55,243 bases of DNA from a virus, in the IMG/VR virus record IMGVR_UViG_3300032265_002780, positions 1 through 55,243 of that record; one strand, written 5' to 3'. The notes beneath the pieces are model-generated. The model ran no database searches, was not told the DNA's origin, and saw nothing but the letters and a program-made list of their open reading frames with translations. Position 1 is the stretch's first letter, and each line of letters begins with the position of its first letter. The position numbers and the translations under genes were made by a program. Positions 10,169-55,243 of this stretch are shown in pieces.

Positions 10169-13100
10169 TTAGCTATTTGGTAACTCATTTAGCGTCAAGG
10201 TTGTTAAAAATGTATCTTGAAAACGTTGTTCAACGCCTTGAACAAAATATTTTTTGTTTACTATATTTTTAAATGTGTAATTTACCGTTACAACATCACC
10301 AATTTCAAACAAAGGGTTTGCATATACTGAAATTTTTGTATCTCTACTAAATCCGTCATTTGCCCTAAATACATTTTTTAAAATTCCTAATGCAGCATTT
10401 TCTGATTGTACCCAATTTGATGTAATTTCTATACTCTGAGAAATATTAGCTGGATCAAAGATTTTTTCTATGGAAACTTCGTTGCTTAAAGCAATAAGAT
10501 TATTTGTATTAACTAGGTATCCAACATCTATTGGATTTTTAGAATCTGGAACTTTTTTAATCCATATTGCAGAAGGAGAACTATTAATAATTGAAAACCT
10601 TCCTCTAAATCCAGAATTATAAATATTAGAATAAGATAGTGAATCTTCACGTAAATTTATAGACTCTAAAATTTCCTGTGGTGCTAAAGATGAAGTTGTT
10701 GTTGATTGAACGGGAACATAATAGTACCAAGAATATGGGGAGGGTACTGGGCGAGCATTTAAGGCTGGAGCTAAATTATATTGAACGTCAAAATAACTAA
10801 CCCCTATAACTTCAGGAACTGTTTGCATCACATAATTTAATTCAAAAGTTTTATTTTTTGAAGAAAGAGTGTTTGCAAAACTTGGTAACTCCCAATGATA
10901 CCAAGTTGATGCATTATATAAAGGTGTTTGAGTTGCATACAATTCAGTAAATGCAATGCTTCCAGATGTTCCAGGTATTGTTGTTTGAGAGAATATTCCA
11001 TATGTTCCCGAAGTATCAATATTTGTTGATAATGTAGGAACTGATATTTCATGATTATTTAAATAAATTTTAAAATATTCATTATTTGTAGATTTAGAAT
11101 CTAATTTAACAAATTTTAAATTAACTGTTCTTCCAAATTGTGCAAATGGGGAATCTTGAGGATATGCTTGAACATCATTTAACAATGCACTGCTTATTTC
11201 AACATATGGAAGGGGACGTTGAGTGGTTCCAAGCAATGATCCTGAGTTATTATATACATACAAGAAATAGGAGTTAGATGTAATTGTAACTCCTTTTTTA
11301 TTTACAACTTTACGCTTATTTTGTGTATCTTGTCTTATCTCAATATATGTAGGGTTTCCAGAATTAAGACCTATTACAAGCCCCCCGCCAAGTCCATTTT
11401 GAAAAGATTTATTGGACTCTGGGCCTATAACCATTTTACAAGAAAAAGTTTTATATGAATAATCTTTTACTGTTGAGCTTGATCCATCATTTGGAGATAT
11501 TGAAACATTGGAGCTTTCTTCATTTAATGGTCTAATAATATTTTTAACTCCTACTGTAGAAGCCCCCATAAAAATTTGATTGTTTGCAACAGTTGGATAG
11601 TCTCCAGAAACATATACCATCTTTGAATACAAAGAGTTTGAATCATTTGTATTATTATTGTTATTTGAAATAATGTTATGTGATCTAACTGGAGTATTAA
11701 ACATTCCTCTTTCAACATTTGCTATTTTACCTGTTGGCTTATAGCTAATGGATCCACCAAATCCCGCCCTTGCTGAAAAATCAGAAATTGCCGTTTGAAG
11801 CTGTGATGCACTATTGATTATAACGTTATAATTTTGTGGATAAGGATTTATTTGTGAATATGAAGGGTTGGCTTCTGGTGTGATACTGAATTGAAATTCT
11901 TTATCTTTAAAGCTTACAATTTCTCCCTCTATAATTGCATATCCATCTTGATCTATGCTAAATTGTGAGAACAAGTTTTTTAAGTCATCTGGATTAAGAT
12001 AAAAATAATTTTGAGAATAATTAGGTATAGATTGATTTAAAAAATTAAAAGTAACAACAGAGTCTTTGCTTAGTTCCCATAAAATATCATTTTTATCAAT
12101 TAGCTCTGTTTCCAAAGATGCGTTACCTGAAGATCCGTTTACAGCCAAAGTTTTATTAATTTGAGGAATTCTATATTTAAGCGTTGCTTTACCAATTTTT
12201 GATTTAATTGTTTCAATATATGTTCCCTCTGTTATGTTGGTTGTTACAGTAAGATTATCTGTATATCCCTGCCCAGTTGTAATTACTTGGGGGGTTGGGT
12301 TATTATGAATCAACAAGTTTGGGGTTGTATTGCCTAAAATATTATCTAGGCTTAAAAACTCCATAACTCCGTATGAGTTTATATACGCTCCTATTTGATA
12401 GACCTCAAATAATTCTCTAAGTACGTCAAAAACTTTTTGTTGCAATCCATCAACATAATAAAATGAAGAATGCATTGGTTGCTTGTTAGTCAATAATGTG
12501 CCATCAATTAAACTAGTCTGGTTTAAAGTTACTTTTCTAAGGGAGTCGTAATCATAATCTGTAAATCCAGCAAAATCTAAAACATTGCTAATTATTTTAA
12601 ATGCGTCTTGAGATTGAGATACATAATCAGTTGGTGATAATAGCTGTAAATACTTTGTGATATCATAAGCAACAACCTCAACTCTTTCAAGGTCCTTTAC
12701 ATTCCAAACATCTGTATAATAAACTCCTCCAGGAATAACGTAGTCAGAAGATGTTGGAGATGATAACCCAGTATATGAATTAAACGTTGTAGACAAGTTA
12801 TCTTTAATAACATAATTGATAATAATTTTTACATTTTGTTTAAACAGTCCTGCAAGCGGGGATGTTGAAGAATTATTAGAAAATATGCTTAATGGTTGAT
12901 TGCTTATATTTAATGGAATAGTTGTTAAGTTAATAGTTGCATTATTAGAAGATATTGCAGAAATTGGAAGAGGGCTTTGCTTATTATCTAGTTCATTTTG
13001 TGTACTGATATCTACAAGAAAATTAGATAGATCTAATTCAATTCTTGGAGATATTTCAATAACTTGAAGTCTTTTTAAATCTTTTTGATATTGTGTATAT

Positions 13101-14401
13101 CTTCCTGGATAACTGACCCCATTCATTGTGCTATTAGATATATCGTTGGATGGGCTATTATATGCAGAATTTATTGATGCTGAATTTTGTTGAACAACTA
13201 TCTTATTGATATTTTGATATAGTGTTATTTGTCCTGTTGCATTATCAAATGTAGGCATTGTTGTCCAAGCCCCGCCTTGACTTGTAGTAAGCCAAGTTCC
13301 ATTAGATTGTAGATAAATAATACAAACGCCATTTAATATATCACTATTTGTTATAGATATGCTTATAGAGTAGCCTGTAACTGTGTTATAGAGATTGACA
13401 GAAACGCTTGTTGGAGTTGAATATTGTGTATTAAATTTTAAAACTATTTTATTTGTTGCAAGCAAAGTATCATATAATGCTCCTAAAGAGTTTGTATTTC
13501 CATCTGAAACAAAATACTTATATGTTGTATAATCAGATACTATGCCATTTTTATACAAAGGATTTGAATTAGAAGATCCTAAAATATGTGGGTGATACGT
13601 TATAGGGCTGCAAGGCATTGATTGATAATTCCAAGAAGAATTATTAAAAGATGTTTTAATTTGTCTAAAGTTTGTAGGAAGGGGTGTTAATGGATTTCCT
13701 GATGGGACATAACTTTCGCCTGGTCTAAAAATGTTAAAAGGAGAAGATGTTGGCCAAGTCTTACCATATTGATAATCAAAGTCTGTTGTTTGAAATATTT
13801 CAAATTGATCAATCAAAACACTATAATTACTTGGAGCTGGTTGAACCAATGAAGCCATAGTTGTATCTCTTGATGTAAAATCAAGGGTTAAATTAAAAGA
13901 TGAGTATGCAGATTGAGTTGGTAAAGAAGTTACATAAACCTCAAATTTTGTCCATATTGTGTTATCAATAACATGAGATGTTGAAGTTGTTCTATGCCCG
14001 TCTGTTCCTATAGCTGTCAATGCAGATAAAGTTACCTCTACATCTTGTGTTGTTTTAGCATAAAAAGTAATTTTATAAGCATTTGAAACTGATGTTCCAG
14101 ATGCTGGCAATATTGTTAAAGTTCCTGATCCATTTTGACCAGATGTAGTAAATTTTAAAGCACTTCCATCTGTATAAACAGTTGATGGCTTTCCTAAAGA
14201 TGTGTCATAAACTACACTACAATTTGTTGTTGTCCAACTACTGGGTGTGTTCCAGTTTGTATATACCTGAGATCCATCTCCAGAAAATGTTGCATATGGA
14301 GCATAAAATAAATTATAGTTCCATTCTGCAGAAACTGTTGGAATTACCTTATGTTGTGTATTAGTAGAAAAATATTGTTTAACAACTGAACTTCCTAGCA
14401 T
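10169..14401 (-). CDS. Tal-like minor tail protein with lectin-like domains
   Basis: 1410 aa. It lies directly after the Dit-like gene (TAATG overlap), where the tail-associated lysin/hub protein sits in siphophages. The N-terminal ~200 residues look like a carbohydrate-binding module (SNAYKITFYAKTTQDVEVTL). The middle (about 560-700: LERVEVVAYDITKYLQLLS, then VFDVLRELFEVYQIGAYI) matches the hub-like core of actinophage minor tail proteins. About 960-1130 resembles a concanavalin-A/LamG sandwich (CKMVIGPESNKSF ... FKIYLNNHEISV). I see no peptidase or muramidase motif, so a hub and adhesin role is more likely than wall digestion. Confidence 0.65.
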   Translation of the reverse strand: MLGSSVVKQYFSTNTQHKVIPTVSAEWNYNLFYAPYATFSGDGSQVYTNWNTPSSWTTTNCSVVYDTSLGKPSTVYTDGSALKFTTSGQNGSGTLTILPASGTSVSNAYKITFYAKTTQDVEVTLSALTAIGTDGHRTTSTSHVIDNTIWTKFEVYVTSLPTQSAYSSFNLTLDFTSRDTTMASLVQPAPSNYSVLIDQFEIFQTTDFDYQYGKTWPTSSPFNIFRPGESYVPSGNPLTPLPTNFRQIKTSFNNSSWNYQSMPCSPITYHPHILGSSNSNPLYKNGIVSDYTTYKYFVSDGNTNSLGALYDTLLATNKIVLKFNTQYSTPTSVSVNLYNTVTGYSISISITNSDILNGVCIIYLQSNGTWLTTSQGGAWTTMPTFDNATGQITLYQNINKIVVQQNSASINSAYNSPSNDISNSTMNGVSYPGRYTQYQKDLKRLQVIEISPRIELDLSNFLVDISTQNELDNKQSPLPISAISSNNATINLTTIPLNISNQPLSIFSNNSSTSPLAGLFKQNVKIIINYVIKDNLSTTFNSYTGLSSPTSSDYVIPGGVYYTDVWNVKDLERVEVVAYDITKYLQLLSPTDYVSQSQDAFKIISNVLDFAGFTDYDYDSLRKVTLNQTSLIDGTLLTNKQPMHSSFYYVDGLQQKVFDVLRELFEVYQIGAYINSYGVMEFLSLDNILGNTTPNLLIHNNPTPQVITTGQGYTDNLTVTTNITEGTYIETIKSKIGKATLKYRIPQINKTLAVNGSSGNASLETELIDKNDILWELSKDSVVTFNFLNQSIPNYSQNYFYLNPDDLKNLFSQFSIDQDGYAIIEGEIVSFKDKEFQFSITPEANPSYSQINPYPQNYNVIINSASQLQTAISDFSARAGFGGSISYKPTGKIANVERGMFNTPVRSHNIISNNNNNTNDSNSLYSKMVYVSGDYPTVANNQIFMGASTVGVKNIIRPLNEESSNVSISPNDGSSSTVKDYSYKTFSCKMVIGPESNKSFQNGLGGGLVIGLNSGNPTYIEIRQDTQNKRKVVNKKGVTITSNSYFLYVYNNSGSLLGTTQRPLPYVEISSALLNDVQAYPQDSPFAQFGRTVNLKFVKLDSKSTNNEYFKIYLNNHEISVPTLSTNIDTSGTYGIFSQTTIPGTSGSIAFTELYATQTPLYNASTWYHWELPSFANTLSSKNKTFELNYVMQTVPEVIGVSYFDVQYNLAPALNARPVPSPYSWYYYVPVQSTTTSSLAPQEILESINLREDSLSYSNIYNSGFRGRFSIINSSPSAIWIKKVPDSKNPIDVGYLVNTNNLIALSNEVSIEKIFDPANISQSIEITSNWVQSENAALGILKNVFRANDGFSRDTKISVYANPLFEIGDVVTVNYTFKNIVNKKYFVQGVEQRFQDTFLTTLTLNELPNS

Positions 14402-32763: not shown

Positions 32764-33522
32764 TTAGATACCCATCTGCTTGCGTTTTTCAGTTGCTGAA
32801 ATAGCTTCAATTTCTTCTCCTAACTTTACTTGTTCAATTTTGTAGCCAACATCACGACCATAGACTATATTTGTAATATTAGGCATTTTTATTACCATTG
32901 CACTATCCATAAATTCATCTTTAGCGATATATTCTTTTACTTGATTAAAAGTTAATGGATCTTTAGGGCTAGTATTAAATGTATTTCTAACTCCTAGCAT
33001 AACTTGACTTGTTCGTTTTCCCGCCTCTTCATATAAAGCATGATGACCTTCGTGCCATGGTTGATAACGACCAAGCATTAAAGTTGTAGGTGCTGACCAA
33101 TCGTGGAGATTAAACTTTTGAATAATATATGTTGATTTTTCATACTCATCCATTTTATGAGAAGAAAATTCAATATCAAAAGTTTTTGGAGAAACAAACA
33201 TTTTATTTGTATCTTCAAATCTTCCTTCATCAATTGTATTCATCCAAATTAAAATATCTGGTTGTCCAAAAGCTTCTCGTGTTGCTGGTGTTGGACAAAT
33301 AAAATCTACAACAACATTAAGTCCTTGACCAGATAACATCTTTGCTATTTCCCCCATGCGTCTGGCGTGTTCAATGCGATTTTCAATTGTAAATCCAAGG
33401 TCTGAGTTTATTGTAGAGCGAACATAATCTGCATTTAAATGTACTGCATTAATTCTATCTTTAAGGGCAGTGGCAAGAGTGGTTTTTCCACTTCCTGGCA
33501 AACCAATAATTTGTATAATCAT
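32764..33522 (-). CDS. APS-kinase-like / nucleotidyltransferase fusion
   Basis: 252 aa from the ATG at 33522, which has an SD (TTAAGGAGAATA); an in-frame TTG at 33570 is less likely. Residues 1-140 are an adenylylsulfate-kinase-like P-loop enzyme: Walker A GLPGSGKTT (7-15), HLNADYVRSTINSDLGFT, NVVVDFICPTPATREAF. Residues 145-252 are a HIGH-type nucleotidyltransferase: GRYQPWHEGH (HEGH 157-160) and ISATEKRKQM. Fusion suggests a phosphorylation followed by nucleotidyl transfer on one substrate, or PAPS-related chemistry; the substrate is unknown. It lies directly after the oxygenase cassette, with DUF2061 downstream. Confidence 0.8.
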   Translation of the reverse strand: MIIQIIGLPGSGKTTLATALKDRINAVHLNADYVRSTINSDLGFTIENRIEHARRMGEIAKMLSGQGLNVVVDFICPTPATREAFGQPDILIWMNTIDEGRFEDTNKMFVSPKTFDIEFSSHKMDEYEKSTYIIQKFNLHDWSAPTTLMLGRYQPWHEGHHALYEEAGKRTSQVMLGVRNTFNTSPKDPLTFNQVKEYIAKDEFMDSAMVIKMPNITNIVYGRDVGYKIEQVKLGEEIEAISATEKRKQMGI

Positions 33523-33530
33523 TATTCTCC

Positions 33531-34145
33531 TTAATCTGTTCCTTTTATTTTCTCTGTATTGTGAAGCCATGTTGGAATAGCATATCTTATTCCATTCTTT
33601 ATTTCAGACACAGAATGTATATAAATAAAATTTGATGGAAACAAGATAACGCTTCCAGCTTTAGGTTTTAATGTAATATTAGATTGGGGAAAATTAATTT
33701 CCCCGCCCTCATAATCATCATTAAGATATATTAACACACTTAATGCCCTGCTACTAGATCCATGATCTTCGTGTGGGGGCAAAGCACCGCCTCCAACATA
33801 TTTTAAAACATTTGGGTTTTCACGAGCTTTTAAGTTTATTTTTGAATAAGGATATATTTTATAATATTGTTCAAGGGCTAAACCTACAAAATCATTTATT
33901 GAATTATGAATATTTATTTCTTCATTATAAAAGGGAAAATCTTTTTGTATTTCAAACGCATTTTTTAATCTAAATTCATAACAAAAGGGTTGTTTATTTT
34001 TGTCTTGCCAAGGCTTCCATATTGTTTCTAAGCCCATCTCTATTCTTTTTTGATTTAAAGATTCAATGTTTTCAACTATTTGATTTGGATTTGTAACTAC
34101 ATCCTCAACAATTACCAAGCCTAGGTCTAAAATATTAATTTTCAT
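33531..34145 (-). CDS. 2-oxoglutarate/Fe(II) oxygenase (prolyl-4-hydroxylase-like) 1
   Basis: 204 aa. The double-stranded beta-helix signature is complete: H125-x-D127 (PPHEDHG), distal H177 (IHSVSEIKNG) and R187 (GIRYAI) for 2-oxoglutarate. The strand SRALSVLIYLNDDYEGGEIN is diagnostic of P4H-like enzymes. It probably hydroxylates a protein side chain or a small molecule. It overlaps the next oxygenase gene upstream by 11 nt. One of five such genes in 5.7 kb. Confidence 0.85.
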   Translation of the reverse strand: MKINILDLGLVIVEDVVTNPNQIVENIESLNQKRIEMGLETIWKPWQDKNKQPFCYEFRLKNAFEIQKDFPFYNEEINIHNSINDFVGLALEQYYKIYPYSKINLKARENPNVLKYVGGGALPPHEDHGSSSRALSVLIYLNDDYEGGEINFPQSNITLKPKAGSVILFPSNFIYIHSVSEIKNGIRYAIPTWLHNTEKIKGTD

Positions 34146-34692
34146 TTTTTAACAAATCTGGATCAGCAAATTCAATTTTTGATGAATGATGAAATAAAAG
34201 AGTATATCTTGTTCCGTTTGTAACTTCTGTTATTCCATGTATATAAGAAGAGTCTTGTTGCGGAAAAAATACTGCACTATATTTTACTGGAATATATTCA
34301 AAATTTTTCTTTGGAAAATAAATTACCCCTCCTTCAAATTCTGGATGCTCGTTTAAATAAATTACAGTGCTCCATTCAATAAATGGTTCTTTTTCAATAT
34401 TATCAATATGTGGATTTCCAGAAAAGCCTTTTAACCATTTTGATGAATACCCTTTTGTAGTATAGACATCAAAGTCTAAATTAAAAAGATTTTTTATTTG
34501 TTTATTTGCTTTATCAGAATATTTTTTTAAAATTGCCAAGGTGGTTTTATTGTATGGAAGAGCTGTTCCTCCGTTTCTATTTGAATAATGTTCTGGGTAT
34601 GGATTTACTTCTGAGGGATTGTTAATTTCAGAAATAATTGTGTTTGCACATTTTTGATCAATAAAGTTTTCAACAATATGTATTTGATTCAT
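34135..34692 (-). CDS. 2-oxoglutarate/Fe(II) oxygenase 2
   Basis: 185 aa. H95-x-D97 (NPHIDN), H152 (YIHGITEV) and R162 (NGTRYTLL) form the full metal and co-substrate set. STVIYLNEHPEFEGGVIYFP is the P4H-like strand pair. It is paralogous in plan to the gene at 33531-34145, with diverged sequence. Both ends are tied to neighbours: the 3' end overlaps by 11 nt and the start shares a base with the glycosyltransferase-like gene stop. Confidence 0.85.
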   Translation of the reverse strand: MNQIHIVENFIDQKCANTIISEINNPSEVNPYPEHYSNRNGGTALPYNKTTLAILKKYSDKANKQIKNLFNLDFDVYTTKGYSSKWLKGFSGNPHIDNIEKEPFIEWSTVIYLNEHPEFEGGVIYFPKKNFEYIPVKYSAVFFPQQDSSYIHGITEVTNGTRYTLLFHHSSKIEFADPDLLKNEN

Positions 34693-35468
34693 TATATTCT
34701 ACTTCCATGATTAATAAATCTTTCCATGCCTCTATGAGGTAATTCTTTATATGTATACTCAACATCATTTAATTGATGATAAATTTTTTTTATTGGATAT
34801 TTTTTTGAATAAAAATCTACCTTATCAATATTTTCTTTTAAATCAACAAACTTATTAAATCCATAATTATACAAGGATTCAACTTCGTTATAGTTATGTG
34901 TTTTTGAAAAAGGTATATGATCATAGTCTTTTTCTTCTTCAACTTCAATAAGTTTATCTATGCCTTCCAAGATTTCATAAGACTTTGCGTATAGTCTAAT
35001 GGACAAATCCTCTTCTTCCCCCATAAGTCTTAGATAGTTTGGATACCCAATGTTTTTTATTACTTCTTTATTAATTAAAGTGCCCTTTAAAGAAAACTTA
35101 TCTTTATATAAAGAAATCAATGTTTTTTTATTATTATTTTTAATAAAATCTTTTAAATTTGTATCCCAGCCCTGTTTAAATTTTGTTGAAGAAGATATAA
35201 AAAATATATAGTGATCATCTGGAATTAAATCAATCATTCTTGATCTATGTTTTACAAAACCTTCAAAATGATCCCATAAAAAATATTCTATCCTATCTGA
35301 TTTAGAAAATTCTTTAACCTTGTGATGATAGCTGTCTTGTATTGTAATTGATAGCCTAATATCTTCAGGATTATTACATTTGTTAAATGCGTCTTCTACG
35401 GTTTCAATAATTTTTTTATCCCTGTAAGCAACACTTAATAATGTTATTTTTATGTTAGTGGTATCCAA
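34692..35468 (-). CDS. Glycosyltransferase-like protein (GT-A, GlcNAc-transferase type)
   Basis: 258 aa. ITLLSVAYRDKKIIETVEDA and NNPEDIRLSITIQD match the start of the family that includes the Skp1 hydroxyproline GlcNAc-transferase of Dictyostelium. FVKHRSRMI, then FFISSSTKFKQGWDTNL and GEEEDLSIRLYAKSY match later motifs. The usual metal site (IDSHM-like, D-x-H) reads ISSST here, so a catalytic Asp may be missing. Starts with TTG at 35468 behind CAGGAACAACA, overlapping the upstream oxygenase by 19 nt. Among oxygenases, it could glycosylate hydroxylated residues, but the altered motif leaves activity open. Confidence 0.6.
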   Translation of the reverse strand: MDTTNIKITLLSVAYRDKKIIETVEDAFNKCNNPEDIRLSITIQDSYHHKVKEFSKSDRIEYFLWDHFEGFVKHRSRMIDLIPDDHYIFFISSSTKFKQGWDTNLKDFIKNNNKKTLISLYKDKFSLKGTLINKEVIKNIGYPNYLRLMGEEEDLSIRLYAKSYEILEGIDKLIEVEEEKDYDHIPFSKTHNYNEVESLYNYGFNKFVDLKENIDKVDFYSKKYPIKKIYHQLNDVEYTYKELPHRGMERFINHGSRI

Positions 35469-36079
35469 TGTTGTTCCTGTTCTATTGGAAACTTTTTAAT
35501 ATGATTAAATGGAACTATGTCATATGCAACAGTAATTCTTGGTCCTTCCCATTGCCAATCCCCCATGGCGTGTGGGTGTCCCATTTCTGAAACAATCATT
35601 CTATTATTTTTATTTATATTTTCAAAAACTTTGCTTTCATCATTAAAAAGCTTATAGTATGTAGATGATGGTTCTGCTTTTACACAATAGTATCCGTGAA
35701 ATAAAGGTGCAAATTGATCTTTAGAATGATCATGCCAATTTAATTTGCCACCTTTTGCATCATTAATATTAAACCAGCCTTGCATCATATAGTTCTGCTT
35801 ATAAAAATCAATATCATAATAATTACAAGCTTCTTTGACAAGCTCAGAAACTCCATTATAAAGATTTCTAATGCCCTCTATATGAAACTGAAAAACATTA
35901 TACTCTCTCCATTTGATTGTTGAGATGCTTTTTGATTCTAGCCAATACTCTTCTGATCCCAGCTCTTTAACGCCAATAACTTTGGCTTGTTCTATAAGGG
36001 CATACCTTTTTGATAATTCATCAGACAATATATCTAGATCGTTATCTAAATATTTTTCAAAAAATTTATGATCTTTCAT
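35450..36079 (-). CDS. 2-oxoglutarate/Fe(II) oxygenase 3 (PF13759-like)
   Basis: 209 aa. QGWFNINDAKGGKLNWHDHS (H116, D117, H118), GYYCVKAEPSSTYYKL, MGHPHAMGDWQWEGP with H168/H170, and R181 (GPRITVAYD) fit the putative 2OG-Fe(II) oxygenase family often seen in marine phages. The metal set uses an H-x-H/HD pattern rather than plain H-x-D. Starts in a TAATG overlap with the gene upstream. Substrate unknown. Confidence 0.8.
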   Translation of the reverse strand: MKDHKFFEKYLDNDLDILSDELSKRYALIEQAKVIGVKELGSEEYWLESKSISTIKWREYNVFQFHIEGIRNLYNGVSELVKEACNYYDIDFYKQNYMMQGWFNINDAKGGKLNWHDHSKDQFAPLFHGYYCVKAEPSSTYYKLFNDESKVFENINKNNRMIVSEMGHPHAMGDWQWEGPRITVAYDIVPFNHIKKFPIEQEQHWIPLT

Positions 36080-36777
36080 TAATTATATTCTTTCTTTGAG
36101 TGAAGATATTTTGTATACCAAGAATGCAGTGTCATGCGTCTATTCTCATGCTCCCACATTTTTTCTTCTGTTATTGAGTTGTCTATTTCCATTTGCCAAG
36201 ATTCTCTGGTGTAAGGAAATACTTGAAATATTGGTGTTCCTTTTTTAATTATACCACTAAAGTCCCTTCTAAGTACAAACCTTATATCTAGCGGGGCAAA
36301 TTTTTTATCTGAATCTACAATTGCAGTTGGAACATGAAATGGCAAATCTGATCTATTAAAGGGGTGGGTTACAAGAACAGATGTTCCTGGTGGTGTTGAT
36401 ATACCAAACATCATTCTAAATGAAAAAGCTATTGGATGAAAAAATGGAGGAATAGGAAATTCAACTAAATGGAATCTATTTATAACAAAGTTTTTTGATT
36501 CCCAAGAAATCTCTGGAACACCTTTTTCATTAATTTCAACCAATATATCTTCTGGTAAAACAAAATGATATCCTGAAGCAAAGGCGTCAAACGTTGGTGC
36601 ACAAATCTTTAAAGATAAAGAGGATGAGTCAAGACCTTCATTATTTTCTATGTTAATATCGTTTAAATGATTAGACGCATTATACATGCTGATATCTTTA
36701 TACCACTGAGGAATATTAACTTTTGCTGGAACTGGATCTGGTCCATTACCCACCCTATAAAATTTTATTTTTTTCAT
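36079..36777 (-). CDS. Unknown protein, family A (copy 1)
   Basis: 232 aa. Related by eye to the product of 37301-38014: both have a short N-terminus ending IP-x-W[YW]K, CAPTFDAFASGYHFVLPEDI against CQAIFDALATGYVLKAPVDI, TPPGTSVLVTHPFNRSDLPF against TPPGYSTLFLPPMHGKDLPI, and RRDFSGIIKKGTPIFQVFP against KRNFNGIIKQGTPIAQILP. It resembles aquatic-phage proteins I cannot name with certainty. A beta-rich, cupin-like fold is possible. ATGA overlap with the gene upstream. Confidence 0.65.
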   Translation of the reverse strand: MKKIKFYRVGNGPDPVPAKVNIPQWYKDISMYNASNHLNDINIENNEGLDSSSLSLKICAPTFDAFASGYHFVLPEDILVEINEKGVPEISWESKNFVINRFHLVEFPIPPFFHPIAFSFRMMFGISTPPGTSVLVTHPFNRSDLPFHVPTAIVDSDKKFAPLDIRFVLRRDFSGIIKKGTPIFQVFPYTRESWQMEIDNSITEEKMWEHENRRMTLHSWYTKYLHSKKEYN

Positions 36778-37301
36778 TTTATAACCATATCATATGCTGG
36801 AGTTAATCTATTTATTTTTCCATATGTTTCTTTAATTGCACTTGATTCTTTTTTAACAAAAAATGGAATCCAAACAGGTTCAAGAATTGTTCTTGGTTCT
36901 GGATAAATAGACTTAAAATTTACAATATTTTTTTCAGGAATAAAAAAGGGATAATCTTTTATGTTTGGTTCTACAAATTCAACTTCAGCATCAATATCAA
37001 TAAACCATGGGCAATACCAAGCATATAAATTTGAAAAACAATTATCTGGAACCGTTATGCCAACATTTTTAATTTCTTTAAATTGTGGTGTTGCTGGTCT
37101 TGATTTCATAAAAATTTCTTTATCATTTTTAAAAATAATTGCATATTCACTATAACAAACCTGTCTATAAATATTTTTAGATATTTTACTGGGTTTTGGC
37201 ACAATTATGTATGAATACAGATGTATTGGTTTTAAAACATCTTTACAAAATTTACTTTTAATTTCTGGATTTATTTCAGCATAAGTTGTATTATGTCTCA
37301 T
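36774..37301 (-). CDS. Unknown protein inside the oxygenase cassette
   Basis: 175 aa from the ATG at 37301 (MRHNTTYAEINPEIKSKF), which overlaps the previous stop as TAATG; a TTG at 37325 is less likely. Contains AWYCPWFIDIDAEVEFVEPN and PEPRTILEPVWIPFFVKKES. The aromatic, Pro-rich pattern recalls family A on either side, but the match is too weak for me to claim homology. No metal-binding triad. Confidence 0.55.
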   Translation of the reverse strand: MRHNTTYAEINPEIKSKFCKDVLKPIHLYSYIIVPKPSKISKNIYRQVCYSEYAIIFKNDKEIFMKSRPATPQFKEIKNVGITVPDNCFSNLYAWYCPWFIDIDAEVEFVEPNIKDYPFFIPEKNIVNFKSIYPEPRTILEPVWIPFFVKKESSAIKETYGKINRLTPAYDMVIK

Positions 37302-38014
37302 TATCGGTATTCTTTCTTTGACCAAAATTTCATTCTATACCCATTAGAAAAAGTTGATCTAATTTTTTTTCTTTGACGCTCTATTGTATCTGCATCATAA
37401 TCATGAATAATGTGGTCCCAGTCTTCTCTTTTAAAAGGTAAAATTTGAGCAATTGGTGTTCCCTGCTTAATAATTCCATTAAAATTTCTTTTTACTAAAA
37501 AGGACAGATGTCCGTCTGTAACAAAAGTGTCTGTGTCTATAACTGCTGGAACCATTTGTATTGGAAGGTCTTTTCCATGCATTGGCGGTAAAAATAAAGT
37601 GCTGTAACCTGGAGGTGTTTTTACAACCCACAAAGGATGAATTCTTAAAATATCTGGCATAAAAATAGATTTATCTATTGGCATCATTGAAACTTGTTCT
37701 CTTGGATGTCCTGAAATAATTAGCGGTGATGCATGCTTCCAATCATGAGGAACTTGAGCCTCATGTCTTTCTTTTTTTGAATCAATAAAAATATCAACTG
37801 GAGCTTTTAAAACATATCCAGTAGCTAGGGCATCAAAAATAGCTTGGCATTTTTTTACCGTAAATTTATAAGAACCGTCAATTATATTTTGTTCTCCGTT
37901 TATTGTTGCTGGTTGTTCTTTCCACCAAGAAGGTATGTTTAAAGTAGTTGGTTCTGGTTCGGGTGCTGTTCCAATTAAAATATTGTTTGCTGGTAAAAAA
38001 GATATTGTTGGCAT
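37301..38014 (-). CDS. Unknown protein, family A (copy 2)
   Basis: 237 aa. MPTISFLPANNILIGTAPEP, then LNIPSWWKEQP, IFDALATGYVLKAPVDIFID and VKTPPGYSTLFLPPMHGKDL. Paralogue of 36079-36777. The two flank the unknown 175-aa gene, and all three sit between oxygenase genes, so a shared pathway is likely. No enzyme motif that I recognise. Confidence 0.65.
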   Translation of the reverse strand: MPTISFLPANNILIGTAPEPEPTTLNIPSWWKEQPATINGEQNIIDGSYKFTVKKCQAIFDALATGYVLKAPVDIFIDSKKERHEAQVPHDWKHASPLIISGHPREQVSMMPIDKSIFMPDILRIHPLWVVKTPPGYSTLFLPPMHGKDLPIQMVPAVIDTDTFVTDGHLSFLVKRNFNGIIKQGTPIAQILPFKREDWDHIIHDYDADTIERQRKKIRSTFSNGYRMKFWSKKEYR

Positions 38015-38016
38015 AA

Positions 38017-38628
38017 TTAACTTTCTTTTTTCAATGTGTAATCAACATTTAAAATGCATCTAAATGGATTGTTTTTTGTTGTGTATGAAGAATGAAATTG
38101 ATGACCATTAAATCTAATTGCTTTGCCCATTTTTGGCGTAACAGATTTAATAATTTTTGCATCTTTTGTATCTTCTCCAAAAAATTTATTAAAAAAAATT
38201 GTGTCCCCATCAGAATCATTTAAATAATATAAAAAGACATCATGTTTAACTATTGTGTCTACATGTGGATAATGAAAATAATCATCATTATTCATACCCA
38301 AAACAACAATCCTTGATCTTAAAATTTTATCATATTTAATGTTGTGTTTTATGCAAAATTTATCAAAAATATGTTTAAAGTCTTCAAATTCTATTTCACC
38401 TATAACTTGAAAAAACGGTTTAGCATTTTCATGATCAAAGGCTAGTGGGGTTCCTTGATAGGGAAAGAGTTTAGGGTTTTCTTGTTTTGCAAGAATGGCT
38501 TGAATATTAGTAAGTCTCCATTTAGGTTTTTGAGAACCAACTTCCTCTGTACCAAAAATTTGCAGGACAAAATCCATTTGCTCTTCTTTTGTTAAGAAGT
38601 TATCATCTTCTATAATATAATCGCTCAT
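38017..38628 (-). CDS. 2-oxoglutarate/Fe(II) oxygenase 4
   Basis: 203 aa. H122-x-D124 (YPHVDTIV), H179 (HQFHSS) and R190 (NPFRCILNVDY) complete the active site. VFLYYLNDSDGDTIFFN is the P4H-like strand. Gap of 2 nt to the downstream gene. Likely a protein or small-molecule hydroxylase; substrate unknown. Confidence 0.82.
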   Translation of the reverse strand: MSDYIIEDDNFLTKEEQMDFVLQIFGTEEVGSQKPKWRLTNIQAILAKQENPKLFPYQGTPLAFDHENAKPFFQVIGEIEFEDFKHIFDKFCIKHNIKYDKILRSRIVVLGMNNDDYFHYPHVDTIVKHDVFLYYLNDSDGDTIFFNKFFGEDTKDAKIIKSVTPKMGKAIRFNGHQFHSSYTTKNNPFRCILNVDYTLKKES

Positions 38629-38639
38629 ATCTATCTTTC

Positions 38640-39200
38640 TTATTTGATAAATCTAAATAGGACTATGTTTACAAATTCCCCGTCATTAAATTTCTTAAAG
38701 GGCCTTGAATGTTCTTGCTCTTTACCCATAAAAGTTACGCCTTCATTATTTTTAAGTAAATAATCAAATCCCTCTACATTAATATTCCAGTCTGTATTTG
38801 ATTCTATCTGATAATCTAGGTGCACTGTAAAATCTGCTTCTGTATGATCTTTGTGACCTGGCAATTTAGGATTTCCAAATAAACCATTGTATTCAAAATA
38901 AGATGTAGAATCAGAATATTTATAATCTTTAAATCCTGATTCATTTATCAATAAAGTAAGTCTATCAATTATGTTTTGAGGAATTTTTAAATTATGTAAA
39001 ACAATCCTTCCAAGCTCTTTTTTATGAATAAATAATGTTTTATTAGTATTAAGCTTTTCACCTTTTTCATTTTTTGGAAAATCTTTAATCCATTTTTGCC
39101 AAGAGTCTTGTTCTTGTATGCCTTTATTAATAATAGATTTTAAATTAATTAATTGATCATTATTTAATACATCTTTAATAACAACATTTTTATTGTTCAT
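38640..39200 (-). CDS. 2-oxoglutarate/Fe(II) oxygenase 5
   Basis: 186 aa. H127-x-D129 (FTVHLDYQ), H164 (EHSRPFKKF) and R183 (LFRFIK) are the probable ligands. GNPKLPGHKDHTEADFTVHL is a feature seen in several phage oxygenases. First gene of the cassette in transcription order, preceded by a short gap that holds a GGCGGGA site (39221-39227, plus strand). Confidence 0.72.
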   Translation of the reverse strand: MNNKNVVIKDVLNNDQLINLKSIINKGIQEQDSWQKWIKDFPKNEKGEKLNTNKTLFIHKKELGRIVLHNLKIPQNIIDRLTLLINESGFKDYKYSDSTSYFEYNGLFGNPKLPGHKDHTEADFTVHLDYQIESNTDWNINVEGFDYLLKNNEGVTFMGKEQEHSRPFKKFNDGEFVNIVLFRFIK

Positions 39201-39220
39201 AATCTTTATTATATCACGAA

Positions 39221-39227
39221 GGCGGGA
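39221..39227 (+). other. GGCGGGA site in an intergenic gap
   Basis: Copy of the enriched 7-mer in the 27-nt gap between the Hint-like gene and the oxygenase cassette. Its presence outside coding sequence shows that the motif is not only a result of protein content. Confidence 0.45.
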
Positions 39228-40109
39228 TTAAATATTTTTTTCAGAGCCCAGTACGAGCATATTTTCAGTAAAAAAGTTATTATATGGTTTACATACAATA
39301 GCTACATTGTCAAATGTAGATTCAATTTCTTCTACAAGCTGGATATCAATAAATCTATTAAATTTATAAGAGTATATTTGATATGTATCATTAACTTCAG
39401 ATGCTTTTATAAAAGAAACTAAATCTTCTTTTTTGCATAAAATATAATGAGAGGGGGTAAAAACATCTCCATCTATATAAATATACTTGTCTGATGGACC
39501 CACATTTATTGAATCAACAACAGTTTCTACAAAATCTTTTTCAGGATCTATATTTTTAAAATCTATTCTTGATAAATCTTGAGAATTTATTTTTAAAGCC
39601 AATAATTTATCTCCAACTTTAAGTTGTTCTGAAGATTTTAATCCATTTAATGTTTGCACTTTTGTTTTAATATTTAAAGAATTTGACCAACCACCACCAA
39701 ATCCGTAAGGTGTAAAGCCAAACGGTGTAAAAGAAAATGGTACAAAAGAAAAGTTTGGAACAATTCCTGTTGTTGTTGAAATATAAGGCCCTGGGCCTGC
39801 AGCTGTTCGTGCTCTCAAACTAAATTCATATGTGTTGTTTACTGTAAAGCTTCCAGTTACTGTTATTGTCCCGCCCGCTGGATTTAAAGTTCCAGAATAT
39901 GTAATTGGTATTGAGGTTCCTAAAATATCAATAATATCTCCAGTATTTGTTCCAGAGCCTTGTAAAGGAATCAAAAATTCGCCATTAGTTTGTATTGGTC
40001 CGTATGTAAGTGTAACTGTTGTTGAGTTTACAACCGTATTTGTTAATGAAGCGGGTGAAGATGGAACTCCAACTGAATCTCCAGCTAAATTTGTTAAAAT
40101 ACCAGCCAT
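39228..40109 (-). CDS. Structural protein with Fn3-like domain, aromatic linker and Hint-like domain
   Basis: 293 aa. Residues 15-115 are Fn3-like (PSSPASLTNTVVNSTTVTLT). Residues 119-141 are a Phe/Pro/Gly linker (FSFVPFSFTPFGFTPYGFGG). From S144 onward the sequence follows Hint (intein/hedgehog) architecture: S-LNIKTKVQTLNGLKSSEQL-KVGDKLL, block-B-like TPSH at 218-221, and a final NNFFTENMLVLGS where inteins end in a strand plus HN. S144 aligns with the catalytic Cys1, and the terminal His-Asn is absent, so any autocleavage would be N-terminal, hedgehog-style. It lies among appendage genes. Confidence 0.6.
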   Translation of the reverse strand: MAGILTNLAGDSVGVPSSPASLTNTVVNSTTVTLTYGPIQTNGEFLIPLQGSGTNTGDIIDILGTSIPITYSGTLNPAGGTITVTGSFTVNNTYEFSLRARTAAGPGPYISTTTGIVPNFSFVPFSFTPFGFTPYGFGGGWSNSLNIKTKVQTLNGLKSSEQLKVGDKLLALKINSQDLSRIDFKNIDPEKDFVETVVDSINVGPSDKYIYIDGDVFTPSHYILCKKEDLVSFIKASEVNDTYQIYSYKFNRFIDIQLVEEIESTFDNVAIVCKPYNNFFTENMLVLGSEKNI

Positions 40110-47068: not shown

Positions 47069-48619
47069 CTAAATTGCATCCATAATTTTTAGTATAAGAA
47101 CGTCATCTGCCCATCGTATACCTGGTGATTGTGTTGAATCTACAACAAGTGTTTGAAATTTTGTACCAACTGGAAGTCTTGTTGTTGATTGAAAACCATT
47201 ACCTACTATTAAATCACCTGTATTAGTAATAAGTGCATTAAAGTTACCCAGAGGTCCTTGAACTCCTTGTAATCCCTGCACTCCTTGTACGCCTTGAATT
47301 CCTTGCGCTTGATTAAATCCACCACCTTGCAAACCTTGAGTTCCTTGAAGTTGTGCATAACCAAATCCTTGAATACCTTGTGTGCCTTGTGGACCTTGAA
47401 TACCTTGAATGCTTAAACCTTGAAGGCCTTGAGTTCCTTGAAGTTGTGCATAACCAAATCCTTGAACACCTTGTGTGCCTTGTGCACCCTGAATACCTTG
47501 TGTACCAGTTGCTCCTTGTAAACCTTGTAAACCTTGTGTACCTTGTGCTTGATTAAATCCGCCACCCTGAAGACCTTGTACACCTTGTGAACCTTGAACT
47601 CCCATAAGATTATCATAAGATTCAAACCATTCTGCACCATCCCAAATATATGTTCTTCCGTCATTAATATTTATCCATCCCGACCCAATTAATGGTGAAG
47701 ACGGAGGTGTTGATGAAATTGCATATGTGTTTACATTTCCTTGAATGCCTTGTAAGCCTTGTATACCTTGTGTGCCTTGTAAACCTTGAGTACCTTGAAT
47801 ACCTTGAATACCTTGTATACTTATGCCTTGTAAGCCTTGTATACCTTGTGTGCCTTGTAAACCTTGAGTACCTTGAACGCCTTGAATACCTTGTATACTT
47901 ATGCCTTGTAAGCCTTGTATACCTTGTGTGCCTTGTAAACCTTGAGTACCTTGAACTGAACCAGCTTGTCCTTGAATACCTTGTAAACCTTGTGCTTGAT
48001 TAAATCCGCCACCTTGAAGACCTTGTAAACCTTGAAGACCCTGTGTACCCTGTGCAGCAGTTGGACCTTGAATACCTTGTGTACCTTGTAATCCAATTTG
48101 TCCAGCAACAGAAAATATCCATCCTGCATATGTTCCAGATCCGACAAATTTATCTGAGTTTACTGTGATAGAAGTATTTGCTGTTAATGAAGTAATTTGT
48201 CCTTCAATATAACTTGTTGGAGATCCCGACGGAACTACAATTACTCTTTGTCCATTTATAAATGCACCAGTACTTGACACTGCAAATGTAAGGGAGCCTG
48301 TTCCTAAAGTTATACTTGTTGTTGATGAAACACCTAAATAAGAAACGCCTTGTGTTCCTTGAATGCCTTGAATAGACAAGCCTTGCACACCTTGTGTGCC
48401 TTGAATGCTTAATCCCTGTAAACCTTGATTTCCTTGTGTTCCTTGAACGCCTTGAATACCTTGTGTTCCAGCGCCTGTTTGTCCTTGTAAACCTTGAACA
48501 CCTTGCGAACCAATTGTTGTTCCAATAGAATCCCAAGTAGTACCATTCCAAATCCAAGTGCGACCTTGGTAGCTGTAGGTTTGATTTAACGACGGGGATG
48601 ATGGAAAACTTATGGCCAT
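47069..48619 (-). CDS. Collagen-like tail protein with MAIxFP module
   Basis: 516 aa. N-terminal module MAISFPSSPSLNQTYSYQGR, then TWIWNGTTWDSIG (residues 1-35); then long Gly-x-Gln runs ([10 protein letters not shown] types) from about 40-90 and 180-310; an inserted beta module (SSTPPSSPLIGSGWININDG, RTYIWDGAEWFES) at about 310-345; more collagen; a C-terminal head (NALITNTGDLIVGNGFQSTT). The repeats form a trimeric triple helix in other phages and extend the appendage. The start lacks an SD and lies 9 nt after a -10 box. Confidence 0.75.
   Translation of the reverse strand: MAISFPSSPSLNQTYSYQGRTWIWNGTTWDSIGTTIGSQGVQGLQGQTGAGTQGIQGVQGTQGNQGLQGLSIQGTQGVQGLSIQGIQGTQGVSYLGVSSTTSITLGTGSLTFAVSSTGAFINGQRVIVVPSGSPTSYIEGQITSLTANTSITVNSDKFVGSGTYAGWIFSVAGQIGLQGTQGIQGPTAAQGTQGLQGLQGLQGGGFNQAQGLQGIQGQAGSVQGTQGLQGTQGIQGLQGISIQGIQGVQGTQGLQGTQGIQGLQGISIQGIQGIQGTQGLQGTQGIQGLQGIQGNVNTYAISSTPPSSPLIGSGWININDGRTYIWDGAEWFESYDNLMGVQGSQGVQGLQGGGFNQAQGTQGLQGLQGATGTQGIQGAQGTQGVQGFGYAQLQGTQGLQGLSIQGIQGPQGTQGIQGFGYAQLQGTQGLQGGGFNQAQGIQGVQGVQGLQGVQGPLGNFNALITNTGDLIVGNGFQSTTRLPVGTKFQTLVVDSTQSPGIRWADDVLILKIMDAI
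47821..47976 (-). repeat. 78-bp tandem repeats in the collagen-like gene
   Basis: Two adjacent, nearly identical units of 78 nt (26 residues: [26 protein letters not shown]) from about 47821 to 47976, with a related partial copy at lower coordinates. They offer easy length change by slipped pairing. Confidence 0.65.
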
Positions 48620-50104: not shown

Positions 50105-50926
50105 CTATACAAATCTTTCTACTCTTAAATTTGCTAATGTAAAGTTTGCTGTAGATCCACTTACATTTTTAACTCTTATCCACATTGAATTTCCTGAATC
50201 TGCTTCAAAATACCAAGGTGCTGATAAATTGTATGAAGTTCCATAAAATCCTGCTGTAGATAACATTACTGTTCCCCCGCCACTTGATGCAGAGCGAACC
50301 TCTATGTCAAACTGGGTTGGAGTATCAGCCGTTATATTAAATAATGATACCAGACCACGCTGACAAACAGAAGTTATTTCAGTTTCTGTAAATGATGTTG
50401 ATACTGGAATATTGCCCAAAGATACTGCAGATTTTGTAACTTTTGCTGTTGAACCTGAAGGTCCTTGTAAACCTTGTGATGCTCCTGAACCTTGTAATCC
50501 TTGTGGTCCGTTATATCCTTGTACGCCCAAATAATTTCCATAAGGTTCAAACCATTCTAAACCATCATAAACATATAGACGACCAGTGTTTGTATTTAAC
50601 CAAGCAGTTCCTGTTAATGGTGTTGCTGGAGGTGTTGTAGAAACTGTATAAACACCTTGCAAACCAATAAGTCCTTGAACACCTTGCAAACCAATAAGTC
50701 CTTGAACACCTTGAATTCCTTGACGACCTTGTATTCCTTGTACGCCTATTAAACCTTGTATTCCTTGAATACCTTGAATACCAGTAAAACCTTGAATACC
50801 TTGAGGTCCTTTATTTGTTGTAAGGTAATTATCAATTTCAGAAGCCAATGCATAAATATCCCTAGGGACGTCGGGAGTATCAGTATATTGTGGGTAGTTG
50901 AAACCCTTAGTAGTTTGCAGGCTCAT
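50105..50926 (-). CDS. Short collagen-like tail protein
   Basis: 273 aa. N-terminus [20 protein letters not shown], typical of fibres that dock through residues 1-40 (DT.D..RDI..LA..ID); then [19 protein letters not shown] and GLIGVQG-type repeats (residues 40-90); a [33 protein letters not shown] module (residues ~92-130), also present at 48619; a second short collagen run; and a beta-rich head ([20 protein letters not shown]). The start lies 8 nt after TGGTATACT and has no SD. Confidence 0.7.
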
Positions 50927-52608: not shown

Positions 52609-55243
52609 TTATGTCCAGGAACCGACAGATGCAACGGTGTCTGTTCCTATTGGTGTTAAACGAATATATGAACCTGGCGCAGTTTGGGTAGGAGATGAAC
52701 CTGGGGCAGTAGAAAACGCAATTTGCGGAATAATTGTTCCTGTAGCGTTAATTCTTAAAACACCCTTAACTTGGAAAGGATTTGCAAGTGCCTGTGATGT
52801 AGTTGTGTACATATTTCCACCAGTTGCCGCTGTCCAAACAAGATGACGAGCCGTTCCAGCAGTTCCAGCCGATGTTTGCGGTGAATAAATAGTTTGAAAA
52901 TAGGCTGAAGTAAATGTTGCCGTACCACCAAAGTTAAAGTTTAATAAAAATGAGTTACTTGCACCTGTTGTAATAATGTTGGCAACTATTTCAAACAAAT
53001 AACTTGTGTTTGCCGCTACGGTAAACGCTCCGTTAGTAGTTGCGTTAAACATGGCTTGGTTTCCAGTTGCCGATGATAGCGTTTTAGCAGTAGAAAGTAT
53101 TTCAAAATAAGATAGATCAATTACTGCGCGACCTGCTGTTGCTGTAGTTGTAAAGTATCCTGCGTTTCCGTCATACTCAATTGCACCCGCAGTAGGTGAG
53201 GTTTGGCTTGTTCCCGAAGTAAGGTTTAATGGAGCGTATGTTGTATTTCCAGCACCTAGTATTGTTGAACCATTAATAGTTGTTTTAGCATAGTTGGTGG
53301 TGCTTGTACGCTGACCGATGTTTATGCTGCCGCCTACGGATTGGTTTGAAACTGGTCCTATTATTACGGCGGCTTGTGAAGTATTTGTACCAAAAGCAAT
53401 ACCTGATGCAGCAGTAGTGCCAGCAATTCCACCAGGAACAATTGTACCAAGTCCATAACTTGTACTTGCTTGCGGATCATCTATTGGCAAATTCTCGTAT
53501 GCTATATCCCATGCACTATTGGTATCTACCGATGTTGAAATGACCGTGCAACGAATTCTTGCTTGAATAGGTAAATTAACAAGTGATGCTGCGCTGCCTG
53601 TCCTAATTGCTGCGGGAGCAGTAGCAGTACTTAAATTAACAATAAGAAAAGAATCACCAAGTGATAAAGTGCTTGTGGTTGGCAAATTAACATACCAAGT
53701 AGTACCGCTTGCACTTCCAGTATAATACTGATTTCTAGCAGATGCAGATGTTAAATTGTAATTTGTGGCTGCAACCGCAACTGTTGTTGCATAAGAAACA
53801 CCAGCAGAAGTACCAGTAGTGCCTTGTAAACCGTTAGTTCCCTGTAAACCTTGAATACCTTGAATTGAAATTCCTTGTAAACCTTGAACTCCTTGAATAC
53901 CTTGTGAAGCAACTAAACCTTGTAAACCTTGTGTTCCCTGTGATCCAGCTCCTGTTAAACCTTGAAAACCTTGGATGCCTTGTAAACCTTGAATGCCTTG
54001 TGTTCCCTGTAATCCAGCTCCTGTTAAACCTTGAAAACCTTGGATGCCTTGTAAACCTTGAATGCCTTGTGTTCCCTGTAATCCAGCTCCTGTTAAACCT
54101 TGAAAACCCTGTATGCCTTGTAAACCACGTCTTGATTGAATAAAGCTGTATGTTATTCCATTTGTAAATGTTCCACCATTTGATACAAAAGTTACAGGAA
54201 TTGTATATGTTGTAGTATTTAATGTTGGTGTTGCTGAAACTTGAAATTCCGCCCAAGTTGCTCCAAATGTAAACCAAATAGTATCTCCATTTGCTATTGA
54301 GCTTCCTGAAGTATTATTTATATACACATTTGTTACAGAAGATACTGTAGCGTTGTTAAAGTTAAATTGTCCAGCAGTTGATGATGTAGATGTTGTTCCA
54401 TTATTAAATGTTAGTGGAACACCAGAAGCAGAGCCCTGTAAACCCTGAATACCTTGAATGCCCTGTGCACCAGTTCCAATAAGACCTTGTAAACCAGTTG
54501 TTCCTTGTGTACCTGTTGTGCCCTGTGAACCAATTGTACCCTGTGCGCCTGTTGTACCTTGTGCACCTGTTGTACCTTGTAAACCAGTTGTTCCTTGTGT
54601 ACCTGTTGTGCCCTGTGAACCAATTGTGCCCTGTGAACCAATTGTACCCTGTGCGCCTGTTGTACCTTGTGCACCTGTTGTACCTTGTGAACCAATTGCG
54701 CCTTGTGCACCTGTTGTACCTTGTGAACCTGTAAGACCTTGTGCTCCAACTAATCCTTGTACACCTTGTGTACCTATTGTGCCTTGTAAACCAATTGTGC
54801 CCTGTGCACCTGTTGTGCCTTGTGCACCTGTTGTGCCCTGTGAACCAATTGTACCCTGTGCACCTATTGTTCCTTGTGTGCCTATTGTGCCCTGTGAACC
54901 TGTTATTCCTTGTGCACCTGTTCTACCTTGTACACCTTGTGTACCCTGTGATCCAGTTATTCCCTGTGATCCAGTTGTTCCTTGTGCTCCAGTTAATCCT
55001 TGTACACCTTGTGTACCCTGTGTTCCTTGTGCTCCAGTTAATCCTTGTACACCTTGTGTACCCTGTGTTCCAGTTAATCCTTGTACACCTTGTGTACCCT
55101 GTGATCCCTGTGAGCCAGTTAATCCTTGTACACCTTGTGTACCCTGTGATCCCTGTGATCCAGTTAATCCTTGTACACCTTGTGTACCCTGTGTTCCCTG
55201 TGATCCAGTTATTCCCTGTGATCCAGTTGTTCCTTGTGCTCCA
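52609..55243 (-). CDS. Large collagen-like tail fibre, 5' end outside the window
   Basis: 877 residues are visible. The frame is open from the edge ([16 protein letters not shown] ...) through to the stop at 52609, so the GTG at 54327 is not its start. Layout: a Gly-x-y collagen domain over roughly the first 265 visible residues, made of Thr, Gln, Ser, Ala, Val and Leu with no Pro or Lys; a beta module (about 275-375, [20 protein letters not shown]); a second collagen run ([10 protein letters not shown]-type, 69-bp repeats); and a C-terminal head of ~380 residues ([40 protein letters not shown]). A long trimeric fibre is the likely role. Confidence 0.8.
53945..54125 (-). repeat. 69-bp tandem repeats in the collagen-like fibre
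   Basis: About 2.6 copies of a 69-nt unit (23 residues, [23 protein letters not shown]). The GAG break shifts the Gly-x-y phase in each unit, so each copy adds a kink or hinge in a triple helix. Confidence 0.7.
54430..55243 (-). repeat. Low-complexity Gly-x-y coding repeat
   Basis: Almost unbroken 9-18 nt units (GGxACACAAGGx) encode [15 protein letters not shown] and G-T-I triplets. A single interruption (GTGAQG) occurs near its 3' end. It may expand or shrink by slipped pairing. Confidence 0.7.

Follow-up and report, generated by a model that had tools for sequence, protein, structure and literature searches.

We analysed a 55-kb virus sequence, IMG/VR record IMGVR_UViG_3300032265_002780 (the window, all 55,243 nucleotides (nt) of the record), in which a cassette at positions 33531–39200 encodes five 2-oxoglutarate (2OG)-Fe(II) oxygenases (Ox1–Ox5), a glycosyltransferase (GT)-like protein and three dUTPase-fold proteins (U5–U7). 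Beside the cassette lies a gene for a protein with a Phe/Pro-rich repeat, and across viral contigs such repeat genes and such cassettes are reciprocally and specifically linked. From this linkage and from the predicted folds, we consider it fairly probable that the cassette is a modification module whose oxygenases hydroxylate the neighbouring repeat protein. An initial annotation of the window had envisaged hydroxylation plus glycosylation of virion proteins. Given how closely, and in both directions, the candidate substrate gene is associated with the cassette, we now favour modification of a structural protein over other interpretations; the glycosylation half of the proposal has lost ground with the metal motif of the GT-like protein (see below).

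Reciprocal linkage of Phe/Pro-repeat genes and oxygenase cassettes

The candidate substrate (39228–40109, minus strand, 293 amino acids (aa)) lies 28 nt upstream of Ox5 and comprises an FN3-like N-terminal part, the Phe/Pro repeat FSFVPFSFTPFGFTPYGF (39699–39752, minus strand), which the initial annotation had passed over, and a C-terminal Hint-like domain. On contig L001 (contigs and loci are cited by L numbers), which is near-identical to the window, this is the only open reading frame (ORF) that passes our repeat filter. The window copy gave no match in a Pfam search; among relatives encoded directly upstream of cassettes, Pfam fn3 was matched by 9 of the 10 proteins tested. A relative in L021 matched Intein_splicing below the cut-off (E = 0.0016), and the window copy apparently has Ser for Cys at the start of the Hint domain. 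Its family comprises 100 ORFs from 77 loci, and counterparts beside other cassettes carry long repeats of the type FGFTPFGFTPF..., FGVFGFSPFGVFGFSPF... or (FFPPFFPFFPPYFP)n (50% Phe, 41% Pro). Single repeats use several Pro codons, and the repeat is therefore maintained at the protein level. Because its repeat is short and its Hint domain does not start with Cys, the system in the window may be a reduced form.

In a reverse test, we fetched viral contigs by DNA pattern alone, ignoring the enzymes, and dereplicated the loci (counts from IMG/VR viral scans, here and below, are minimum figures drawn from samples and not full censuses). An oxygenase lay within 3 kb downstream at 66 of the 73 FFPPFFPFFP loci, and a U gene (encoding a dUTPase-fold protein) within 4 kb at 65/73. 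For FGFxPFGFxPF loci, the corresponding figures were 34/44 and 16/44, and the nearest recognised neighbour within 1.5 kb was an Ox3, U or Ox1-type gene in 39/44. Control loci encoding collagen-like fibres had an oxygenase in 0/40 cases and a U gene in 1/40 (Fisher p = 1e-23 for oxygenase linkage of FFPPFFP and 9e-15 for FGFxPF against this control). A forward test gave the same picture: a Phe/Pro-repeat ORF was present within 2.5 kb upstream of 27 of the 28 cassettes found through U and 36 of the 40 found through Ox3, against a background of 18 ORFs passing the same filter among 3238 ORFs at control loci. The type of repeat follows the type of cassette. FGFxPF repeats pair with Ox3-type cassettes (Ox3 was the first neighbour in 26/44), and FFPPFFP repeats pair with O-U-O-U-O arrays (O, oxygenase), typically of 5–9 oxygenases.

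These data bear on whether the target might be some other structural or surface molecule, such as another tail fibre or a host glycan, with the repeat gene merely sharing the same late, fibre-linked module. The cassette is surrounded by tail and other structural genes, and the fibres encoded in the window are collagen-like, a classical class of hydroxylation substrate. We nevertheless find another target unlikely, as the collagen repeats of the window are Gly-x-Gln and nearly devoid of Pro and Lys, the collagen control shows no linkage and enzyme type tracks repeat type. The collagen-like fibre ORFs in question lie at 47069–48619, 50105–50926, 52609–54327 and 54469–55243. As substrates they were rejected, being poor in Pro and Lys and of a class unlinked in the control; a Pro/Lys-rich Gly-X-Y protein linked to the enzymes, by which collagen hydroxylation would be recognised, was not found.

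A different fate for the repeat protein, as precursor of a peptide resembling ribosomally synthesized and post-translationally modified peptides, released via the Hint domain and acting outside the virion, appears very improbable. It would suit a multi-enzyme cassette adjoining a repetitive substrate, and the Hint-like domains found in 27 of 37 FGFxPF proteins and Cys-rich tails in 21 of 55 FFPPFFP proteins are in keeping with it. However, a fibre or surface protein is the better match for the FN3 domains and for the position among structural genes, and we saw neither a leader-recognition element nor a gene for a protease or for export.

The cassette itself recurs widely. Many diverged freshwater phage contigs (L010–L012, L016–L020, L022, L082 and others) repeat its order, which runs Hint protein–U7–(Ox5)–U6–U5–Ox3(–Ox3)–GT–Ox1–Ox2(–Ox4). 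Because this order recurs in so many diverged contigs, the cassette is more than a chance grouping, and its order is conserved beyond chance. On the gene-neighbourhood check set beforehand, relatives keep the genes linked and in order and do not scatter them. U-family genes were found on at least 477 viral contigs in the IMG/VR scan, typically in O-U-O-U-O-O-O arrays. A second, commoner layout consists of oxygenase, U, oxygenase, U and at least three further oxygenases, and 29 of the 31 arrays with enough sequence held 5–9 oxygenases. In a FastTree phylogeny of 197 oxygenases from 34 arrays, which has several long branches, array positions a, b and c1 each formed near-single clades (2–3 label changes per 33–34 genes each). 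The array oxygenases are therefore old, non-redundant paralogs kept in order, and the initial description of the window's oxygenases as diverged, not simply the product of recent duplication, fits both the five proteins and the arrays.

The order and setting of these genes also speak against a metabolic role, as has been suggested in print for cyanophage 2OG oxygenases (PMC4164917, PMC9602691). Under that explanation, the oxygenases would be auxiliary metabolic enzymes that shift host 2-oxoglutarate, nitrogen or energy metabolism, and the repeat linkage would be incidental. We hold this to be improbable, given that the linkage is specific and reciprocal to Phe/Pro-repeat genes and not to collagen fibres, that the paralogs are many, non-redundant and in fixed order, and that the cassette sits in a late structural region.

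Among the recurrences are very large freshwater arrays (L100–L179, L180–L294) with two dUTPase-fold genes amid typically 5–9 tandem 2OG oxygenases. They lie behind an FN3-(FFPPFFP)n protein, in some cases with a Cys-rich C-terminus. A scan of genome contigs matched a single contig from a metagenome-assembled genome. This 5.3-kb contig (L099), binned to a Chitinophagaceae genome, carries O-O-U-U-O and is probably phage DNA that was binned with it.

The cassette and its five oxygenases

Nine ORFs lie between 33531 and 39200, all on the minus strand and all as initially annotated; around them, the window encodes tailed-phage proteins (portal, head protease, tape measure and tail-fibre). From Ox1 to U6, neighbouring genes overlap by 11 (Ox1/Ox2), 1 (Ox2/GT-like), 19 (GT-like/Ox3), 1 (Ox3/U5) and 4 nt (U5/U6). 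The overlaps of 1–19 nt first described thus hold for most pairs. They do not extend to U6/U7, which overlap by 25 nt if TTG is taken as the start of U6, or to U7/Ox4 and Ox4/Ox5, which are separated by 2 and 11 nt, respectively. Because the genes share one direction and mostly overlap, the cassette is likely to be one operon.

The cassette with its five oxygenases is real: all five belong to the 2OG-Fe(II) superfamily by fold or profile, and the evidence supports their being diverged members of one system. Ox1 (33531–34145) and Ox2 (34135–34692) are P4H-like, with HED...H...R and HID...H...R motifs, and match PF13640 (2OG-FeII_Oxy_3) above the Pfam cut-off (E = 6e-15 and 1e-8, respectively); Ox1 also has a weak Tet_JBP match (E = 0.0012). 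Ox4 (38017–38628) falls below the Pfam threshold. It matches phrog_274 (E = 3e-21), its invariant residues in the family alignment are H122xD124...H179...R190, and in profile comparison it aligned with the Ox1 family on HxD (prob 50, E = 1.6e-4). A metal triad and 2OG-binding Arg had been ascribed to all five proteins; the HxD...H triad and the Arg are indeed complete in Ox1, Ox2 and Ox4, and the other two depart from the pattern.

Ox3 (35450–36079) had no match in a Pfam search, and its assignment comes from structure prediction: the AlphaFold model (pLDDT 94) matched solved 2OG oxygenases in the PDB (3bvc, 2rg4, PHD2 and P. putida P4H, E down to 1.5e-6). Its invariant residues are H116, H118, H170 and R181, that is, HxH with His in place of the usual Asp and the 2OG-type Arg (R181) retained. 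Relatives of Ox3 are encoded on at least 112 viral contigs in the IMG/VR scan. Ox5 (38640–39200) passed no Pfam cut-off; hhalign placed it with the Ox1 family (prob 94), with the HxD columns matched (alignment A9, 20 sequences). Its triad is complete (H116xD118...H164). The usual 2OG Arg about 10 residues past the distal His is absent, and an invariant Arg stands instead at +2 (R166). Searches of PDB sequences with the Ox3, Ox4, Ox5, U and GT profiles, and tblastn of Ox3, GT-like and U6 against annotated phages, yielded nothing useful.

Cyanophage homologs of Ox4 are labelled either 2OG oxygenase or 'DNA endonuclease V', and the latter label is probably wrong. Matches to 2OG oxygenases were found here for three PHROG families, 274, 2297 and 3531, whose labels read 'DNA endonuclease V', 'DNA endonuclease' and 'ferrochelatase'. 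Phage records repeat these labels, which are probable misannotations.

A lack of GGCGGG sites in the cassette had been offered as a hint of separate origin. The window holds 37 such sites over 55 kb on both strands, 30 on the coding strand and 7 on the other, so the motif favours the coding strand; one of the sites falls within Ox1. The largest gap is 5.5 kb (33702–39221), and a neighbouring structural gene has a gap of 4.5 kb. A gap as long as the largest, or longer, is expected by chance (p about 0.85), and we rejected the inference of separate origin.

dUTPase-fold and glycosyltransferase-like proteins

Three proteins at first listed as unknown proved to be paralogs with a predicted dUTPase fold. 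U5 (36079–36777) and U7 (37301–38014) share 34% identity and match phrog_7084 (E = 7e-30 and 1e-39, respectively). U6 (36774–37325, its TTG start uncertain) is a third, most diverged paralog, linked to the U5/U7 family by hhalign (prob 86.5). In Foldseek searches with the AlphaFold model of U7 (pLDDT 85), dUTPases made up 50 of the 50 PDB matches listed (best E = 4e-4, target TM up to 0.74). At the sequence level, homology was not significant: the dUTPase profile (PF00692) matched 1 of 31 U members (E = 0.049), and single-sequence hhalign of U against the SPbeta dUTPase YosS was likewise not significant.

The predicted fold of U7 is like that of YosS (PDB 2xy3), but U7 has extra N- and C-terminal parts and lacks the RSG/RSS motif 2 and the C-terminal GHGSTG motif 5. 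These absences extend to the U family (alignment A1 against YosS), which has a P-M-N/H type sequence instead of motif 2 and no GxGSTG motif 5; a motif-3-like V/I-D-x-D (VIDTD) and a motif-4-like GTPxxQ (GTPIAQ) remain. On account of the missing catalytic motifs, we rejected U5–U7 as working dUTPases; with motifs 2 and 5 gone, U7 is not expected to hydrolyse dUTP by the established mechanism. From their linkage and fold, these proteins are probably partners in the system. U5 and U7 are also related to DUF6065 (PF19541); U7 scores 17.8 bits against a cut-off of 26.6, which is passed by U family members in L074 and L085 and by HSTV-2 gp40. Our literature search on DUF6065, which covered open-licence papers, found no paper.

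Lone U/DUF6065 relatives occur in haloarchaeal tailed viruses and in cyanophage S-RIM4 (L097, L098 and L535). In the haloarchaeal viruses they have tail fibre/adhesin genes on one side and ribonucleotide reductase (RNR) or thymidylate synthase on the other; the relative in S-RIM4 has RNR and transaldolase nearby. Halovirus HRTV-14 encodes a U relative and, separately, a true dUTPase.

The GT-like protein (34692–35468, TTG start) is GT60-related, scoring 29.6 bits against PF11397 (cut-off 21), a profile matched by 9 of the 16 members of its family. PF11397 is the family of the Skp1 hydroxyproline GlcNAc-transferase. Relatives outside cassettes keep ..DSHT..WD, whereas in cassette copies the D and H of DxH are replaced (SSS, NPA, GDD, SDS, KRS and others; SSST in the window). 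Canonical metal-dependent transfer by such a protein is doubtful to judge by its residues, and so is glycosylation by the cassette. The Pfam match had suggested hydroxylation followed by glycosylation by a GT60 enzyme, as on Skp1, a candidate scheme that the loss of DxH weakens.

With dUTPase-fold, oxygenase and GT-like proteins side by side, one might also think of base-J-like hypermodification of nucleotides or DNA, in which the dUTPase-fold protein would bind a pyrimidine nucleotide, TET/JBP-like oxygenases would oxidise it and the GT-like protein would decorate it. The fold of U7 and the weak Tet_JBP match of Ox1 lean this way, as does the company of the U relatives, which lie near RNR/thymidylate synthase in haloviruses and adjoin RNR in S-RIM4; an RNR also follows the array in L171. 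Set against this, U lacks dUTPase motifs 2 and 5, HRTV-14 has its separate true dUTPase, the metal motif of the GT-like protein is lost, the fold of Ox3 is close to PHD/P4H enzymes and the linkage to the repeat protein would be left unexplained. On balance, we judge hypermodification to be as improbable as the metabolic role.

Proposed modification and related systems

If the oxygenases do hydroxylate the repeat protein, the system could work as follows. Late in infection, the phage would make the product of 39228–40109, a protein of surface or tail type that combines an FN3 domain and a Phe/Pro-rich repeat. The diverged 2OG-Fe(II) oxygenases, as separate paralogs, would hydroxylate different positions of the repeat, most likely Pro and perhaps Phe, Tyr or Gly. 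U5–U7, their dUTPase catalytic motifs lost, would act as partners in substrate binding or presentation or as a trimer scaffold, and the Hint-like domain would cleave the repeat protein where Cys or Ser is retained. Pro is the residue most likely to be hydroxylated, since the closest folds and Pfam families resemble prolyl hydroxylases. A bolder version, which we put forward tentatively and think somewhat less probable than its opposite, is that oxygenase batteries with catalytically dead dUTPase-fold partners turn the extremely hydrophobic Phe/Pro repeat of a surface or tail protein into a multiply hydroxylated fibre, resembling mussel adhesive and governing adsorption or stability, with one oxygenase per repeat position, and that such systems are widespread and undescribed.

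Several points weigh against hydroxylation of the repeat protein by the cassette. The argument for it is one of gene linkage plus fold, and a weak point in it is the location of the repeat protein, for which the virion is likely. The window repeat is short (~18 aa, three Pro), seemingly little for five oxygenases, of which Ox3 (HxH) and Ox5 (no classic Arg) might, from their residues, not be active in the usual way. Haloviruses and cyanophage S-RIM4 have U relatives without an oxygenase array, and about 10–25% of repeat loci lack a recognised oxygenase in their vicinity.

The question matters because, of the aquatic phage genes that still lack an explanation, those for 2OG oxygenases rank among the commonest, and they are usually ascribed to host metabolism. 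For a large proportion of those in freshwater phages, the reciprocal linkage points to a specific substrate that can be tested and, if the proposal is true, multi-site protein hydroxylation would be a phage trait. For DUF6065 the analysis offers a lead, in that the fold is dUTPase-like and the dUTPase motifs are missing, and with the Phe/Pro-repeat proteins it introduces a new class of structural protein.

Multiple 2OG oxygenases are already known in T4-like cyanophages, one of which, the cultured S-SCSM1, has 24 2OG-Fe(II) oxygenase genes and a virion proteome of 45 proteins measured by mass spectrometry; the functions of these oxygenases were not investigated by the authors, and the passages of the paper considered here draw no link to a fibre (PMC9602691). 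In the S-SCSM1 sequence (L533:3885–8349), we found a run of four 2OG oxygenases immediately upstream of a pair of tail-fibre genes. An Arg/Pro/aromatic repeat extends over roughly 230 aa of its short tail fibre, ORF245. S-SCSM1 is thus an independent example of oxygenases beside a repeat fibre. It resembles the window in having many diverged oxygenases in one phage, four of them beside tail-fibre genes of which one encodes a repeat, but the stretch read has no dUTPase-fold gene or Phe/Pro FN3 protein.

Viral hydroxylation of a structural repeat protein is also known already, from the mimivirus collagen lysyl hydroxylase/glycosyltransferase (PMC9546862). There, as proposed here for a candidate substrate, a viral 2OG oxygenase acts on a repetitive structural protein of the virus. 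The mimivirus system differs in belonging to a eukaryotic virus and in its collagen Gly-X-Y substrate, few enzymes, working glycosyltransferase and lack of a dUTPase-fold partner. The Skp1 system of Dictyostelium and Toxoplasma (PMC3515798) likewise combines a P4H-type oxygenase with a PF11397/GT60-related protein; in the phage, by contrast, DxH of the GT-like protein is lost, the oxygenases are several and the substrate is of another type. In the open-licence literature, we found no paper on hydroxyproline in phage tail fibres and none that describes the Phe/Pro-repeat proteins, how they are linked to oxygenase arrays, or the dUTPase-fold partners.

A possible accessory gene (32764–33570, minus strand) overlaps Ox1 by 40 nt and encodes a fusion of a P-loop kinase with an HxGH nucleotidyltransferase (phrog_10255, E = 7e-67). 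Its relatives share a locus with cassette genes in L024–L028 and L078, and its membership of the system is uncertain. In L024, a NodU/Nol-like carbamoyltransferase (12735–14177) is encoded immediately after the last cassette oxygenase and could possibly decorate hydroxyl groups.

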